Below are positions 16,589-55,393 of a DNA stretch of 64,000 nt, piece after piece. Within the stretch, counting starts at the first letter, position 1, and each line of letters starts with the position of its first letter. Location: positions 434,001 through 498,000 of the forward strand of contig OX596001.1 in NCBI GenBank assembly GCA_951394045.1, given 5' to 3'. Made by a program: the position numbers and the translations under genes. The notes under the pieces were generated by a model. The model did not search any database. It saw nothing but the letters and a program-made list of their open reading frames with translations, and was not told the origin of the DNA. This DNA comes from Nitzschia sp. DOCU1. Taxonomy: Eukaryota > Bacillariophyta > Bacillariophyceae > Bacillariales > Bacillariaceae.

Positions 16589-19500
16589 ATGTCGGCTCCC
16601 CGTCCTGTCCACACGTTATCCAGAGAACTCCGGGAGACTCCGGACGAGGCGGAACCCAGCTATTCCTACGAGGATAGTGCATTTCTAGGCGGCCTGGAAG
16701 ACGATGTGGAAGATGAGTTCCACCGGCGTCTAGCCAGCAACAGTAAACAACGAGACAGTTCAGGAGCTGCAGTAGGAGGTGGGCCTTTAGGCCCAGCTTC
16801 TAGTCAAGTGGGAATCGGTGGCGCTGCTTTAGGTGCTGGAGGGGGAAGCAGCTTTTGGAGAACGGATATGCCAGTAGGGGCTCTCCCTTTGCAACCTGTG
16901 ACCCTAAAGGAGCGAAAAAGTTCGGGTGGGTTATTAGGAGCCGCACTGCAGTTGCATTCTCAATCTAGCAATGTTTCGGATGGGGCTTCCTCTTCCAATC
17001 AGGCGAAAGCCGGCAAGGATAAGAGTTCTGCCAAAATAAGCAACTCAAATGGAGAGCCTTCGGTAGGTGTTTGTGGCGTGCTATTGTTGTTCAACTCTGG
17101 CAGGAATCTGCTGCCTTTCCCATTTGAAATCGCTTATCGCCTGTTCCTTTGTTTCCTTATCCCCTTTTCTTGTATCATTCAGCGCGTCAACTCGAACGGG
17201 ATCACCGGGACTCCCCAGGACTATCGAAGAGCGGGTTCCAATGTCAGCCAGGGATCGATAGGAAGTGGCGGGGGAGCAGCAAGCAATCCTTTGCGAGATA
17301 CCAAAAAGAATATTTCCAAGCAGCGTGCCGAAGCCCGGCGATTAAAACTGGACAGCCACCTAAACGAGGTCGATATCGGTCATGTGGTCGAAGTCCCAAC
17401 AACAGTTGCGTCAATGAGTCCTCTACGGACTAGCGCAGTAAATGGAGATCATCCTGCTGGTAGCGATGATGCGCATTCGCATTATACCAATGGTGCAGGT
17501 ACGACAACTACGAAAGATGGCGCGGAATCCTTGGCTTCAAACGATAGTAGCGATGCAGGCAGCCCCAGTGCCGCGACTCGTAGTACCTCGGCGGCGAGCA
17601 GTACGACGGGGGGGCTGTTTTATGGCGGCAACAAATCCACTCCGAATCGGTCGAGTGGGGGTGGCGTCTTGTTTGGCAAGTCTTCCAGTCTCATCTTCCC
17701 CACTGGTGTCGAACCTCCTACGGGAAACGACACAACAGTAGACTCGGGGAATAGCAAGCGACACAAGATCAACATTTTGCTCGATCAATGTGAGACAATC
17801 CGATTTCCATTCAAGAAAAAGCTTATGTTAACTTCTCTGGGCTTGACGGCGGCCGATATTCCTGTGAAGGATTTGTATGGGACCAATCTAGGAAATTCTT
17901 TGCACAAGCTTTCGCTTGCTGGAAATCGGCTTTCGACTATTCCACCCAAGTTGGTAACGTGCCTCCCCACTCTGAAAACGCTAGATCTTTCCCAATGCGA
18001 GCTTCATCAACTTCCGGAACGATGGAATTTGCCACAGCTTAAACGCCTCAATCTATCCCACAATCGACTGACTGACTTCCCAGAGGAGGTACGTGGGCGA
18101 GGATGCTTTCATTGCCTCACTGAATCTCCTTTTGCCTTATCTAACAACGTTTCCGCCATCAGAGTATGCTAGAGGGACTCCCAGAGCTTTCCGAACTTAA
18201 TATGTACGGCAACAAAGTTAGCGTAATTGTTGTCCCAAACAACCCGAAGCTCCTTTCAAAATTGGAAACTCTGAATCTCGGCTACAACGATCTTGCCTAT
18301 ATTCCGGATGATTTGGATCGTCTGAAGAGTTTGAGGACGCTCAAGGTCATGAACAATTTTTTGGAAAAGATTCCCATGCGCGTTTGTGACATGGAGCTCA
18401 AGACGATAGACGTATCCAGCAATCCAGTCATTCAGCCACCAATTGAAACTTGTGAGCGAGGAATTTGTAGCATGAAGCGCTATTATCACTGCTTGCGGAT
18501 GGAGGAACAATCCAAGCAAAAGGCGCTAGAAGCTCTTCAGTCGAAGGCATCTCGACAGAACAAGAAGCAGCCTAAGACGAAGAGCAAAATGTTCACTCTA
18601 GCAAAACCACAACGGATCATGCAAATCAGCCTTGGACGAAAATCATCGGAAGACTCCGGGTCCCAAACGAATTCCGCCTTGCCTGGCGAGACGACGAGCA
18701 GCGCACACATAACGGAAGCTAGCACCCGAGAGTTTGAGAAGGCCACTCCCACTACGCAAAAGCGATCCGTAAGCATCAATGTCCCCCCTGTTTTTTCCGG
18801 CCCCCCGAAATCGAGATCGGCGGCATTTTCGCTGGATTCTCATGATGAACCGAGAAGAGCAACGAGCTTAGATTCTAGTTCACTCGCGCAGCGATCTGCA
18901 GGTGAAGCCGTCAAACATGTCAGAATGCCTCCCACCCCCGAGATGGAAACTTCAAACGCTTCAGTGGAAGGTGCTTCAGTCGAAGAGCTGAATCTTGTCA
19001 ATAATTTTGATGAAGTTACTGTAAACGACACACTGAAAGTTATATTTGTCGGCATGGCCATGGCTGGGAAGACCTCCATGATCAAGCGATTGATTGAAGG
19101 GGAGAATGCTATCGTCCCAAAGCGTGATGAGCGAACGGTGGGCGTTGATATCTACGAATGGGACCCCAAAGACGACCGGCGTTTCGAGCATATTGATAGC
19201 CGGATTGACCTCGGCGACAAGGAGCTCGATGAACTGTGTGGAGATGTGAATGTCAAGTTTAGCGTATGGGATTTCGCTGGCCAGCACGTCTACCACGCAA
19301 CGCATGAGCTTTTCTTTTCGCCCCGCGCCTTGTACGTCCTCGTTTGGGATATGGGCGCCACAAATCCTGCCACCAAGGCTCGGAAATCGGATTTTGAGGC
19401 CCAGAAAGGCCCCTTCTCGCTGAACTACGATTCGGACAATGACTCTGACGATGACGACGATTTTACCATGGAGGAAGAGCTGATAAGGGCGGACAGAGCC

Positions 19501-22401
19501 TTGAAACGCGATATCGACGATAAGATCCAGTTCTGGGTGGACTGTATCCAATCCAGCGCTCCCGGGGCGGCCATCCTTCCAGTTGCCAGTTTCGACGACC
19601 TTTTCGCGACGAATCCTCAAGAAGCAAAGCGACGATGTAATATTCTGAAACAACGACTTCTGGAACATGAAGCCAGAAGAATAGCAGGAATCAAACAGCG
19701 TCTCAGCGCCTATGTTGAGAACAATCGGGCCAACGACGAGGGTGCCCTGAGGTTACGAAAGCTCCTGTGCGACTACACGCGACCCAAGCTTATATTTGGC
19801 GACACCGAGGACGATGCGGTAATTCGCGTTAGCGGAACCAAATACACTGGGTTTGCGGACTTGACAGAGCGTATCATCAACATTGCTACCGGCCGTGAGA
19901 AAGCTCAGATGAAGTATCCTATCTTCCGTGGTCACGTGGGGGCTCGAATCCCTCGTATGCGCTTGGAAGTTCGGGAAGCAGTTCGACGAATGCGAGATCG
20001 CTTCAAGGTCGTTGAATGGGGCTTCCTCATCAACCAGTTAAAGGGTAATGGGCTGACAAACGCGGAGGACATTAGTGACGCGCTCCACTTTTTGACCAAT
20101 ATCGGAGAGCTCTCGTACTTTGGCGGCGTCAACCCTAGCAGAGATGATTCGATTGAAAATGTGGACGACGAATGGGCTAAGAACTCTAAGCGGGCATCAA
20201 TGTCACTGATGGGGAGCGGAGATGACGTTTCAGCACTTAGTGAAGACGAAGATTTGGATGACGAAACCGACGATAATCCATACCTATCCATCGACAATAC
20301 TACCATGACGATGCCCACTACTGAAACTGGCTCCATTTCGACACTCGGTGATACTCTTTCGGGTGGTCTCTCTCAGTTCGTCTTTTTGAATCCGCGATGG
20401 CTAGTTGCCGCAGTTGCATGCATTTTACGGCACGACCTTGACCGAGAAATACAAGAGACCCGCCGCGCCTTGGCGCATGGACACAAATATATCAAACGAG
20501 GTGATAGCTTCTACGAGGCAAATTTGAATTGCCCAGTCATCACAGCAGATGATGCGTGCATGCTCTGGCAAGCAAAGAAATTCACGAAAAAGGCCGCCGA
20601 GAGAGTCGAGGAATACTCGAACAACATGCCAGTAAAGCCATTCGAATTCTTGCAACTTCTACTTATTCGATTCGGCGTCTTTGTTCCCATTGATCTTGGT
20701 ATCGAGAAGGCTTTTCTTGGTGGCAAAGAGTATGCCCGTCGCCTGTCTAACGACGATGACAAGCCCGAGGAAATCACAATCGGCCAATCCAATTCGATCC
20801 TAAAGGCAACTTTCTTCTTTCTACCCAGTCTGCTAGGACCAGGCGAGCCTGCCGAGGCGTGGACATACAAGAGCACCGATTCATGGAAAGCAACGCTTTG
20901 CCATTCTGTTCTTTTCCCAGACGGTGTCCCCCCTGGCCTCATGGAACGGATCAATGCTTCCGTCTTGAGCAACATCTACGCCATCGCTCACAGGCAAGAA
21001 CAATTAACGTACCGAGGCTTCGACGGAACCCACGTGGCTACACATGAAGGCCAACTGACGGTCAAAGAAGTGCTGTGTTGGCGAACGGCCTTCCTGGTGA
21101 AGGTGGGAATGCAACTTGGAGGCGAGAACAAGGAGAGTATTGTCGAAGTTTTCTGCGGCCTTGTCGACAAGGAATCACATCTCTGTGTCGGCAGCGATTC
21201 TATGCTCTCGGGAATGAGACGCCTTGTCACAAGCGGCAAAGGGCAAGAAGGTGATGGCGGACGAAAGATTTGGAAGGGTGGCTACCTCATCGTTTTGAAA
21301 GCCGTCCAAAAGGTAATGGACGAATACGGTGGCCTTGAGTACGAGAAGCAAGGCTTCTGCCCCGAATGCATCTCGAAGAAAGCTGTGGCCGAAGCCGCCT
21401 CATGGGACTTCACTCAAATTCGAAATGCAGTGAAAGATGGAGAGACGGTAATGCGTTGTACCCATGGTCACCGAGTTGATACTCGACTCGTCGCCGGGCC
21501 CTTGGGGAACCTCCAACCTAGACCAAGCACGGGCATTAGCCAAAACAACCAAGACCCAGTCGTCCCTATCCATGACTTGCTTAGAGCAGTTGTGGTTGTC
21601 GGTTTGTGGGACGGACATTCGAAGTCCAGGAAGGTCATTCGTGTCGGATCTGGCTTCATTGCCGACAAGAAGAGAGGCCTGATTGTCACTGCTAGCCATA
21701 CTTTGATGAACATTTGGGGCGACAAGAGCACACCCTTTGGAGAGAATTACTACGGGCTACGGAATGGCAAGGTCGTCATCGGCATCATTCCGAGGACGAA
21801 AGGCGAGGATACTGGAACCGAAGCAGTCTTCCGTTACTTTGCCAAGATTGTCGCTAAAGATCCATTCATCGATCAAGGAGTCTGCCATTTGGATGCTTGC
21901 GTCCTGAAAATCACAACCAGGATGGAGAACGACGTTGTAGGAAACGGAGAGGGGTGTGGAGATCAGCCGGAACGCCTCCTCCTCAACAATCCGATCGCCT
22001 TGAAGCAGGAGAAGTTGCACCAATTGAAGATAACGGATAAGTGCCATTTGGAGGAGCAAGTCCGCATCGTTGGCTATAACCAAGGCGGCGAGGGACTACT
22101 GGGGCCTGGTGTGAGCCTCAATCGATACGTTGACTTTGCTCGAGGATACATTTCAAAGATTTATTCGGCCGGAGAAAGCACCACTAACGATGACCAACCT
22201 CGTCACCGGTTCAAGCCGAGGGAAGAGATCGTCGTCATTTGTCCGACCATCGGAGGCCACAGTGGTGGACCCTGCGTCAACCAGCAGGGAGAGGTCATTG
22301 GCATTCTCAGCCGCGCCGATCCCGCCGAAAACCATCGTTGCTACTTGGTTCCCACCTATGAGTGGAGATCACTTCTCAGGGAGGCCAAGAATGCCCTCTA
22401 G
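16589..22401 (+). CDS. LRR-ROCO GTPase with C-terminal trypsin-like serine protease
   Basis: Exons 16589-17062, 17183-18088 and 18163-22401, phase 0 introns; 1872 residues. About 1-400 is Ser/Gly-rich and disordered. Leucine-rich repeats run from about 410 to 560 ('LHKLSLAGNRLSTIPPKL', 'LKRLNLSHNRLTDFP'). A linker leads to the Roc G domain: P-loop 'GMAMAGKTS' (757-765, Lys763), 'TVGVDIYEW', G3 'DFAGQ' (830-834). COR follows from about 1048, with 'FLNPRWLVAAVACIL'. A CPEC...CxHGH element lies at 1525-1561. From about 1603 comes a trypsin fold: 'GSGFIADKKRGLIVTASH' (His1639), 'HLDACVLKI' (Asp1704) and 'IGGHSGGPC' (Ser1827), with 'GEVIGILS' after the Ser. ROCO proteins are nucleotide-switched dimers, usually with a kinase or death-type partner domain. 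A nucleotide-gated protease is inferred. The G4 motif was not identified. The first intron is 120 bases and stop-free, so intron retention would keep the frame. Confidence 0.85.
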
Positions 22402-52607: not shown

Positions 52608-52780
52608 ATTCGAATCGAACGGGTCGTATTTTGCCACCACCTTCGCGCCTATTCGAAGCATGACCAAAACTCGCGTAGAAGTCACGTAGTGTTGGTACCG
52701 CCATGAAAACTCCCTCCAAGAGGCGCAACCTTGTGAACGACCATGACACTCGCATGCCGGAAACGAGAGTTCACTCGCTT
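52608..52780 (+). repeat. Duplicated 5' module, copy 2
   Basis: Matches 51386-51515 in order of blocks. Here the 'KTPSK' codons begin with ATG at 52703 and form a short upstream ORF. Confidence 0.65.
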
Positions 52781-52853
52781 CCATCATTCCTTGTGTTTTG
52801 GATCAGATCCAATCTTTTCGCGTATTCCTTCCATTCTCTATAGCGTGATTACC

Positions 52854-55393
52854 ATGTCCCGCAGCAATAATAGCAACTACAAGAGCAAGTCTGCTGCCGC
52901 TTCTGCTGGACTCGTCTACGCGGTCGCCAATGGTCCACAACCTGGAATTTACTTTGATTGGACACCGAGTGCGATTCAAGGCATTTCCAATGCTCAGTGG
53001 GAGTCTTTTCCGAGCGTAGCACAAGCCCAGCGCTATCTAGAAGCAAAAGGTTTGCTTCCGCCTCCAGCTTTGGCAGATGGATGGATTTCTACCAAGACAA
53101 AATCTCCCATTTTGTACACGCACCGTGACGACGACGACCACGACCACGACGACGGACAAACTACAATTCCTCCCACGGTCTCTACGGATTCGACTACCGG
53201 TAGTACTCTACCGCAACATCCACAGTCTCCTGCTAGTAGTACTGATGACACCGATGATATTGCCGAAACTACCAGATTGGATGCCATGCAACAACGTGCT
53301 GTGGATGCCGCCTTGGCAGGTCAAAATGTCTTTTTGACCGGAGTCGCTGGTACCGGCAAATCGTTGGTCACCAAGCTCATTTATCAACAAGCCTTGCAAC
53401 GTCATGGTGCTACTGCTACTATTCATACTGCTGGCAACAGTAATAACAAACGCCGTCGTGGTGTTCCACATGTCAAGGTAGCACTTACTGCTCCCACGGG
53501 CATGGCTGCCGTAGGATTAGGACCTACGGGACAAACCATTCATAGTCTGGCACGCGTCAAAATACCCCTGTTGCGAGCGTCAGATTTTGCCACGATGCAT
53601 CATCCTGCCAATGCTCTGCAGTGGCAACGTCTTTGCGTTCTCATCATGGATGAAGTCGGCATGTTGTCTGCCGACTTTTTGGATTGGTTGGACGTCAATG
53701 TTCGCAAAATTCGACGTCGGCCTTTGGAAGTATTTGGTGGCATTCAATTGATTCTAGTGGGAGATTTTGCTCAATTAGGACCCATTCCAGGAAACATTTC
53801 CATGCGTGCTGGCAGCAGCCAAGGGGATCATCATCATTTACCACCCTTTGAACCTACCCATAAAGCCGCCGATTGTTTTTTGGGCGTACAAGAAACTACG
53901 GCCTTTGCCTTTCAAAGTGCCGTATGGCGACAAGCCAACTTTTTGTCTGTCAACTTGACCAACGTCTATCGTCAATCCGATGGTGACTTTTGTTTAGCTC
54001 TCCAAGATTTACGGCAACAACAAATGTCGGAATTGGTTCAGAGTCTAGTCCAAAAGTGTAGTGTGGCATTGGAGGATTTCACACAACGCCAAAACGTCTT
54101 TGGCGCTGACGCAATACAAATTCCAAAGGGACTCTTGCCGACGCTCTTGTATACCAATAATCGTAATGCCGATCGAGAAAATGCAGGTACGAAACCTATT
54201 TGTCAGACTCGTGCGCGCATTCCATTCGGCACTCTGTGTAAATGCACTCACTCACTCACAACAAATATATACTATTAGATCGATTGGCATCTTTGACGAC
54301 CGAACACAAACGATTTGAGGCCATGGATTCGGTGCATGTTGACGAAACTGTTGCACCCCACACGTTGGGACAAGTCAAGGCGTTTCTCAAAACCAACAAA
54401 TTCTTTGAACAATGTCAGGCGCCCCAACAGTTGGATTTGAAAATTGGGGCCCAAGTCATGTTGGTGCAAAATTGCTCATCAGGAACCAAGCTCGTCAATG
54501 GCAGTCGAGGAGTCGTGGAACGCTTTGCCCTAGTGCCCTTGTTGAGTGACTTGAAAGGTCAAGAACAACGATTGTTGGGCCCTCAAGATTCCGAATGGTA
54601 TCCTGGATTTTGCTTTGAACAACTCAAATTTGGCATGACATTTGAAATTCATGGCAAAACTTTTAAAATCATCAAGTTTGTCAAGTATCCTCTGGTGCGA
54701 TTCTTGAACAATGAGGCTCGCATCATTTTGCCCACCACATTTGAACGAACCCTCTATCATCAAGGTACTTGTGTCCGAGTCCAATTGCCTTTGCGGCTAA
54801 GTTGGGCACTGACCATTCATAAATCTCAAGGTTGTACCTTGGATTGGGTCATTTGTGACTTGGCGGGATGTTTTACAGCAGGTCAAGCCTATGTCGCATT
54901 GAGTCGAGCCAAGAATATGGCTGGATTGCAAATTCGCAACTTTACGCCAGAAGCGGTCAAGACGAATCCATTGGTGGATCGCTTTTATCAAGCCTTGGCG
55001 TCGTCGTCGGATAATGCCATGGAAGAGTTTTTGGAAAAGGAAGCTGGATTGTGGTGGTATCCAATTTATTACGCTCCCGACTGGCTCCGCATGTTTCGGG
55101 AAGCATGTGGGACTCGCAAAGCTCGAGAAAACTCTCAACAGTTTTCCATGTGGGTGGCCAATTATGCACCTCCATCGAATTATCAAGGATGGAAGGGATA
55201 TTCGGACGAGCGTGGTAGAAGTGCCGTATCCACAACACGCACGCCGCCGCAACCAATCACTCCAAAGGATGCTGCCTCTGGTGCTGCGTTTCACCCCCAC
55301 AACAACATCAACAATAGCAGCAGCAGCCAACGGCACATGGTCACTCCGTCCTTGACTCAGTCGGCGGCCCCCGTTCTGCCCAATGCCAAGTAA
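52854..55393 (+). CDS. PIF1-family helicase with RNase H1-type hybrid-binding domain
   Basis: Exons 52854-54186 and 54279-55393 splice in phase 1 to 815 residues. Residues about 20-68 ('VYAVANGPQPGIYFDWTPSAI', 'SNAQWESFPSVAQAQRYLEAKG') match the RNase H1 N-terminal/viroplasmin domain that grips RNA-DNA hybrids. The helicase follows: Walker A 'GVAGTGKS' (Lys169), 'TAPTGMAAVGL.GQTIHSLARV', Walker B 'LIMDEVGMLS', 'GGIQLILVGDFAQLGPI', 'LSWALTIHKSQGCTLD' and 'AYVALSRAKNMAGLQI'. PIF1 enzymes unwind 5'-3', resolving G-quadruplexes and RNA-DNA hybrids in nucleus and mitochondrion. The domain pairing suggests an R-loop-directed helicase. Low-complexity tail after about 740. Convergent with the S16 gene. 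Confidence 0.9.

Follow-up and report, generated by a model that had tools for sequence, protein, structure and literature searches.

The 64,000-nucleotide window of Nitzschia sp. DOCU1 analysed here contains a gene (16589..22401, forward strand, as are all features below) for a ROCO-protease. With some confidence, we are inclined to see in it a diatom serine protease that is controlled by GTP and is probably located in the cytosol. As read from the translation and the predicted structure, one chain joins leucine-rich repeats (LRRs), a Roc domain with intact motifs, a COR region, a Cys/His element and an HtrA-type domain with a complete catalytic triad. An earlier note on this DNA had proposed an LRR-Roc-COR-protease in one chain with a full triad, and the motif positions, Pfam, Foldseek and the conservation among relatives bear this out. 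No signal peptide was apparent when the N-terminus was judged by eye.

Gene Structure

Conceptual splicing of the gene gave three exons and a product of 1872 amino acids. Exon 1 (16589..17062) encodes a conserved N-terminus (MSAPRPVHTLSRELRETPDEAEPSYSYE...), to which the database proteins P0004, P0034 and P0083 align from residues 1-4, and a low-complexity region; scanned alone, it matched no Pfam family. Intron 1 (17063..17182, GT..AG, 120 bases) is open in frame, and it is considered real because the predicted orthologue P0004 shows a gap where in-frame read-through would add sequence. The choice of start codon and intron 1 are thus supported, at the sequence level, by P0004, itself a predicted protein, whose alignment begins at its residue 4. 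Exon 2 (17183..18088) encodes low-complexity sequence and the first LRRs, which run on in frame across the join at intron 2 (18089..18162, GT..AG, 74 bases) into exon 3 (18163..22401), where the remaining LRRs, Roc, COR, the Cys/His element, the protease and the stop codon follow. From Roc to the protease the reading is therefore a single open exon. A transcript break between COR and protease, which would have spoken against the fusion, did not occur, as P0039 and P0103, database relatives marked by their source as complete transcripts, span LRR through protease in one protein. An artefactual fusion of two genes was ruled out by the single exon and the identical layout of these transcript-derived relatives.

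LRR, Roc and COR Regions

The LRRs (residues 395-560, 17891..18462), split by intron 2, comprise six LxxLxLxxN-type copies, one with C instead of N, and were recognised in exon 2 by the Pfam families LRR_4 (3.6e-12) and LRR_8 (1.1e-10). The Roc GTPase domain, with approximate limits at residues 748-960 (19024..19662), was identified by Pfam (7.9e-14) and by Foldseek matches to LRRK1/2. Its translation contains a G1 P-loop, GMAMAGKTS (residues 757-765, 19051..19077), and a G3 motif, DFAGQ (residues 830-834, 19270..19284). In the group of relatives here called clade A, P-loop Gly762 and Lys763 are present in all 96 rows reaching the P-loop, the Asp, Gly and Gln of G3 in 97/97 rows reaching G3, and Asp939 in 111/111 rows reaching G4. 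At the G4 position (residues 936-939, 19588..19599), translation and alignment show S-F-D-D replacing NKxD, and the missing Lys counts against GTP control; Roc domains are described as variable at G4-G5 (PMC6337361).

The COR region, comprising COR-A and COR-B (approximately residues 1015-1510, 19825..21312), lies directly behind a Roc domain that bears both G1 and G3, the arrangement that places the protein among the ROCOs. Its Pfam matches are weak, with COR-A at 5.9e-7 falling below the curated cut-off (29.9 vs 35.3 bits) and COR-B at 0.023, and COR-A also stays under the cut-off in P0039 and P0103, which counts against our preferred explanation. The identity of COR is instead carried by the predicted structure, as Foldseek matched the predicted Roc-COR to LRRK1 (8e05, 2.1e-19), LRRK2 and the bacterial LRR-Roc-COR protein CtRoco (6hlu, 2.1e-11), with which the core module is shared. 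This assignment rests on Foldseek, the VIA-align matches listed being to the protease domain. A poorly conserved insert is located near residues 1120-1195.

Between COR-B and the protease, the alignment revealed a CPxC...CxxGH element (C1526, C1529, C1559 and H1563; 21358..21471), present here as CPEC at 1526 and CTHGH at 1559. Its three Cys are conserved in 186/186 rows and its His in 184/186, across both clades, and it possibly forms a metal-binding knuckle.

Protease Domain

The HtrA-type serine protease domain (residues 1595-1872, 21565..22398) matched Trypsin_2 over the full profile (positions 1-144 of 144, 6.6e-13) in the Pfam scan of exon 3. The catalytic residues are His1639 (IVTASH at 1634; 21697..21699), Asp1704 (LDACVLKI at 1703; 21892..21894) and Ser1827 (GGHSGGPC at 1824; 22261..22263), each present in 186/186 rows. 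A profile alignment to HtrA (E 2e-9) matched all three, pairing them with the HtrA His, the Asp of DIAVLKI and the Ser of GNSGGP, respectively. When the protein was aligned by MAFFT with HtrA relatives encoded in this genome, the long inserts left the Asp unaligned; the profile alignment placed it. The predicted fold is a chymotrypsin-type double barrel close to HtrA, with the triad in HtrA context. As its residues align to those of HtrA, they would be expected to meet, and the prediction gave no sign of the opposite outcome, which would have undermined the proposal. A chance triad was ruled out by the conservation, the HtrA fold match and the profile alignment. The earlier description of a trypsin-like protease thus holds as regards a serine protease with a complete triad, while fold and profile alignment fit an HtrA/Deg-like enzyme better, and the domain is better named so.

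HTRA1, DegP and DegS-type proteases, which we take to constitute peptidase family S1C, have the same predicted fold and triad order, but the ROCO-protease differs in its fusion to a ROCO module, its long inserts between triad residues and its lack of a recognised PDZ domain: none emerged when each of the three exons was scanned against Pfam with E values up to 1 accepted, and the protein terminates after the protease. It is very improbable that the domain is a pseudoprotease that binds peptides without cutting them, as, besides the triad, GxSG is found in 186/186 rows of both clades and the pocket-region residues Arg1844, Asp1846, Tyr1854 and Pro1857 in 185/186 each. Regarding a prokaryotic origin of the protease half, a single scan of contigs of prokaryotic genomes with a seven-sequence alignment yielded 301 pattern stretches, 0 of them confirmed by tblastn; distant relatives are possible.

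Two Clades and Genomic Context

The same genome encodes a paralogue (clade B) with the same protease, a degenerate Roc domain and no recognised LRRs. Based on sequence, this sister gene seems to retain the protease while having lost most GTPase motifs, which points to cutting as the output. In clade A, the GTPase motifs kept in 96 to 111 rows, together with the invariant triad, make both activities look constrained. The persistence of the clade B protease beside a degenerate GTPase counts against the proposed mechanism, since GTP binding would be dispensable for some proteases of the family. It may accordingly be asked whether the protease is constitutive, or regulated by substrate as HtrA can be, with Roc-COR acting not as its switch but as a scaffold for dimerisation or a module for localisation. 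Such an arrangement, which we hold to be rather unlikely, would agree with clade B, where the triad is found in 72/72 rows although the P-loop Gly is altered in 65 of the 70 rows reaching the P-loop, Gln occupies its G3 column in only 1/71 (P0180, where no DxxGQ surrounds it) and 7/71 have the G4 Asp, and where the paralogue's Roc-COR still has a predicted LRRK1-like fold. However, a scaffold would need none of the GTPase motifs that are kept in every clade A row reaching them, and the P-loop Lys remains in 70/71 clade B rows, so that these proteins may still bind nucleotide.

The search for further ROCO genes in the genome detected no more than these two. There were 32 matches to the Roc model, most of them in short frames taken collectively for small GTPases, and two to COR-A at E up to 0.1, neither above cut-off. 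Among nine neighbouring ORFs scanned, no partner gene was seen; three had no family and six corresponded to EcKL/APH, cytidylyltransferase-like, fringe-like, sulfatase, lipase_3 and PIF1 helicase. With P0116 as query, 178 rows were obtained; the 120 that were listed included no non-diatom name, and most rows are without an organism name.

Relation to Known Systems

The earlier note knew of no described ROCO-protease, a statement overtaken by a 2024 report (PMC11378527) of a C-terminal peptidase domain (IPR009003) on three ROCOs of brown algae, termed group 3; these nest with ROCOs of other SAR species, some of which also bear a peptidase. Their likeness to the diatom protein is one of described layout, and no brown algal names occurred among the database rows listed for the latter. 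The mention is brief, and in the parts consulted it does not go into a triad, a fold, a Cys/His element, a mechanism or a clade of paralogues. It was the only ROCO-peptidase fusion found in the literature covered, chiefly open-access journals. Copy-number expansion is also described for brown algal ROCOs; no sign of it was seen in this genome.

Brown algal ROCOs have been proposed as immune receptors (PMC11378527), and trypsin-like peptidases are joined to STAND and other NTPases in bacterial conflict systems (PMC7159879, PMC8195603), a design of NTPase plus trypsin-fold peptidase shared with the ROCO-protease, although the NTPase class differs: the Pfam scan detected no NB-ARC or NACHT, and the NTPase is Roc. 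Both would suit an immune receptor or cell-death effector whose LRRs detect a pathogen or damage signal and then free the protease. The algal defence or cell-death role suggested earlier is nevertheless disfavoured, and we consider it unlikely, given the two ROCO genes, the absence of a brown-algal-style expansion and a clade A LRR identity of 0.69 (computed on the 3828/6441 row pairs in which LRR coverage sufficed), the same value as for the protease (0.69) and near that of Roc (0.71).

A related layout is that of LRRK1/LRRK2, in which a catalytic domain likewise follows COR-B in an LRR-Roc-COR protein. There, the output enzyme is a protein kinase with WD40 behind it; no kinase was found in the Pfam scan here, where the protease occupies the post-COR place.

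Proposed Mechanism and Significance

As a precedent, GTP binding has been associated with the LRRs swinging by about 135 degrees, with rotation of CORB and with a shift to monomers (PMC11052575). For GTP control of the ROCO-protease, the nucleotide state of Roc would move the LRRs and COR-B and shift the COR-B dimer equilibrium, as in CtRoco and LRRK2. With the protease tethered to COR-B via the Cys/His element, this movement could uncover it or order its activation loops, and the protease would then cleave a conserved intracellular substrate. The interdomain placement is putative (pTM 0.67), which was counted against the mechanism. The paralogue would probably either work independently of nucleotide or dimerise with the clade A protein. 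A more tentative and doubtful extension is a diatom two-protein proteolytic switch, in which a clade A GTP-binding LRR-ROCO protease and a conserved clade B ROCO protease, LRR-less and a pseudo-GTPase, joined via COR-B, would have both active sites opened or ordered by the nucleotide of the former alone.

How the nucleotide state of Roc-COR reaches the attached enzyme is an open question in the LRRK2 field, its mechanisms being unknown (PMC11052575). The Roc-COR module here bears another enzyme class than in LRRK2, and features common to LRRK2 and the ROCO-protease would therefore represent a general transmission mechanism, readable by a simple peptide-cleavage assay and with a natural control in the same genome, namely the paralogue with retained protease and degenerate GTPase motifs. 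Diatoms would gain a GTP-linked intracellular protease and, if the two-protein switch is true, a ROCO system with proteolysis as its output instead of phosphorylation.

Gene Structure and N-Terminal Region

The gene at window positions 16589-22401 (forward strand) comprises three exons (16589-17062, 17183-18088, and 18163-22401), which give a spliced product of 1872 residues in which each motif quoted in the earlier note was found at its given position. The proposed fusion within one exon was also confirmed, as exon 3 begins partway through the leucine-rich repeats (LRRs) and by itself encodes the 1412 residues up to the stop. The gene start is supported by P0004, a predicted orthologue, whose alignment to the gene begins at its residue 4; the same protein has a gap at the position of intron 1, even though this intron is open in frame. 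Intron 1 (window 17063-17182) spans 120 in-frame bases without stops, and if read through would add 40 residues, mostly hydrophobic. The N-terminus is otherwise of low complexity, except for two stretches common to orthologues (window 16589-16700 and residues about 320-335), around MSxPRPxHTLSRELRE...EPSYSYE and GKSSSLIFPTGVE, which are possible regulatory or binding motifs. Elsewhere in the window, positions 52743-54278 encode a PIF1-like helicase that also matches the RNase H1 N-terminal domain.

A Conserved Protease Triad in a Diatom Family

Profile-profile alignment against three HtrA-like proteins encoded in the same genome (E 2e-9, probability 96) placed His1639, Asp1704, and Ser1827, previously read as a catalytic triad, on the HtrA triad. 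Relatives were sought in three protein searches, which gave 271, 235, and 178 matches, the best 120 of each amounting to at least 187 different proteins. An alignment of 184 database proteins with the gene and its paralogue, 186 rows in all, was split into clade A (114 rows), the clade of the gene, an LRR-ROCO protease, and clade B (72 rows). The triad is kept in 186/186 rows, across both clades, as are Cys1526, Cys1529, and Cys1559 of the Cys/His element, with His1563 kept in 184. In unaligned rows of any length, the strict triad pattern was present in 108/114 clade A and 72/72 clade B rows. Three further rows from the third search, outside these counts, showed the strict pattern in one case, and all three carried TxxH and GxSG motifs with a full-length Trypsin_2 match; one of them, P0186, reads GHSGS at the Ser motif.

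Among the matches listed, the organisms named (a minority of rows) were Nitzschia, Bacillariaceae sp., Cylindrotheca, Pseudo-nitzschia, Mayamaea, Epithemia, Seminavis, Thalassionema, Thalassiosira, Skeletonema, Odontella, Attheya, and Chaetoceros. These are diatoms, as confirmed by lineage look-up for five of the names. Two members marked by their source as complete transcripts, P0039 and P0103, contain LRR, Roc, and Trypsin_2 domains, plus a COR-A match below the cut-off. A variant, P0185, has Roc, a weak COR-A, and Trypsin_2, with no LRR hit in the domain scan and an IQ calmodulin-binding motif (3.2e-5) N-terminal of Roc, suggesting a possible calcium input to part of the family. The database names of P0166 (Seminavis; "NADH dehydrogenase complex I, assembly factor 6") and P0007 (Nitzschia; "Miro domain containing protein") look misleading.

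The earlier note knew of no described ROCO-protease of this layout, but the layout is already mentioned in print: one study reports three brown algal ROCOs with an additional C-terminal peptidase domain (IPR009003), nested with ROCOs of other SAR lineages, some likewise with peptidase domains, and puts diatoms at a maximum of four ROCO copies each (PMC11378527). In the accessible portions of the literature searched, no description was found of the triad, the fold, the Cys/His element, the diatom family, or a pseudo-GTPase clade.

Two Clades Differing in the GTPase Domain

The A/B split received a support of 100 in an unrooted tree of 100 rows, containing 71 clade B rows (P0119 was omitted as short) and 29 of the 114 clade A rows, picked by hand; some long branches leave deeper placements unsure. 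Clade B consists of the paralogue, P0113-P0115, P0117-P0120, and 64 rows new in the second search. Among clade A rows reaching each site, Gly762 and Lys763 of the P-loop are kept in 96/96, Gln834 of G3 in 97/97, and the G4 Asp939 in 111/111, and 93/114 rows contain DFAGQ or DFGGQ. This retention of the GTPase motifs speaks for a nucleotide switch in clade A. In contrast, position 762 in clade B is occupied by Asp (50), Glu (14), Gly (5), Pro (1), or a gap (2), and, counted on ungapped rows, the G4 Asp is found in 7/71 and a Ser/Thr three residues before it in 16/71. The G3 region of clade B is poorly aligned in the 186-row alignment, where Gln occupies the Gln834 column in 1/71 rows (P0180, in a different context); in unaligned sequences the typical motif is DVQGA (31/72 rows), and DxxGQ occurred in 0/49 rows whose pattern frame could be located. 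The alignment counts agree with a pattern check of unaligned rows longer than 1300, which detected the P-loop in 88/90 clade A versus 2/62 clade B rows and G3 in 87/90 versus 0/62. Lys763 is kept in 70/71 clade B rows, and this clade may therefore still bind phosphate.

The paralogue (L011:2412-7604, on contig C14 of the same genome) has a degenerate Roc (GDARVDKTA, DVQGAS), an intact protease, and no recognised LRRs. A domain scan at E up to 1 yielded no LRR hit in it, and none of the other 71 clade B rows, some of them fragments, lists an LRR accession. Its structural model (mean pLDDT 83.0) matches LRRK1 (2.9e-20) and HTRA1 (9.2e-10). Adjoining it, an ORF at L011:7700-8851 (reverse strand) looks by eye as if it encodes an LRR protein that also carries a membrane segment and a proline-rich stretch. 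Searching the genome with exon 3 recovered, among 11 candidates scored, the gene itself, the paralogue, and one LRR-only stretch (G000:C4:1062358-1062621), which belongs to a very long open frame (2658 residues). With a threshold of E 0.1, COR-A was detected in the gene and the paralogue only, both below the cut-off.

Members of both clades were seen in this genome and also under the names Nitzschia inconspicua, Nitzschia sp. Nitz4, Cylindrotheca fusiformis, Mayamaea pseudoterrestris, and Bacillariaceae sp.; the other organism names have one clade each among the matches listed, which is no evidence of absence. The M. pseudoterrestris clade A and B genes (P0060 and P0173) may be linked, as their locus tags (MPSEU_000740300 and MPSEU_000739300) are close and their listed contigs are of equal length, whereas in our genome the two lie on different contigs.

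Conservation and Putative Function

According to PMC11052575, GTP binding converts CtRoco to a monomer, with an LRR swing of ~135 degrees and a CORB rotation of 30 degrees, and the LRRs of LRRK2 cover the kinase cleft. By analogy, the gene's product could be subject to similar nucleotide-driven control, with the difference that its protease stands where LRRK2 has the kinase.

Mean pairwise identity between clades A and B was highest for the protease (0.54), followed by Roc (0.41), COR-B (0.40), and COR-A (0.33), and this better conservation of the protease favours proteolysis as the output that both clades share. Within clade B, the values were 0.65 for the protease, 0.63 for the Cys/His region, 0.62 for COR-B, 0.56 for Roc, and 0.52 for COR-A. 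Within clade A, identity reached 0.69 for the LRRs (over the 3828 of 6441 row pairs with enough LRR sequence), 0.71 for both Roc and COR-A, 0.64 for COR-B, 0.57 for the Cys/His region, and 0.69 for the protease. The suggestion of an algal defence effector is disfavoured: LRRs as constrained as the enzyme they accompany, together with a low copy number, speak for a conserved intracellular role rather than that of an arms-race receptor.
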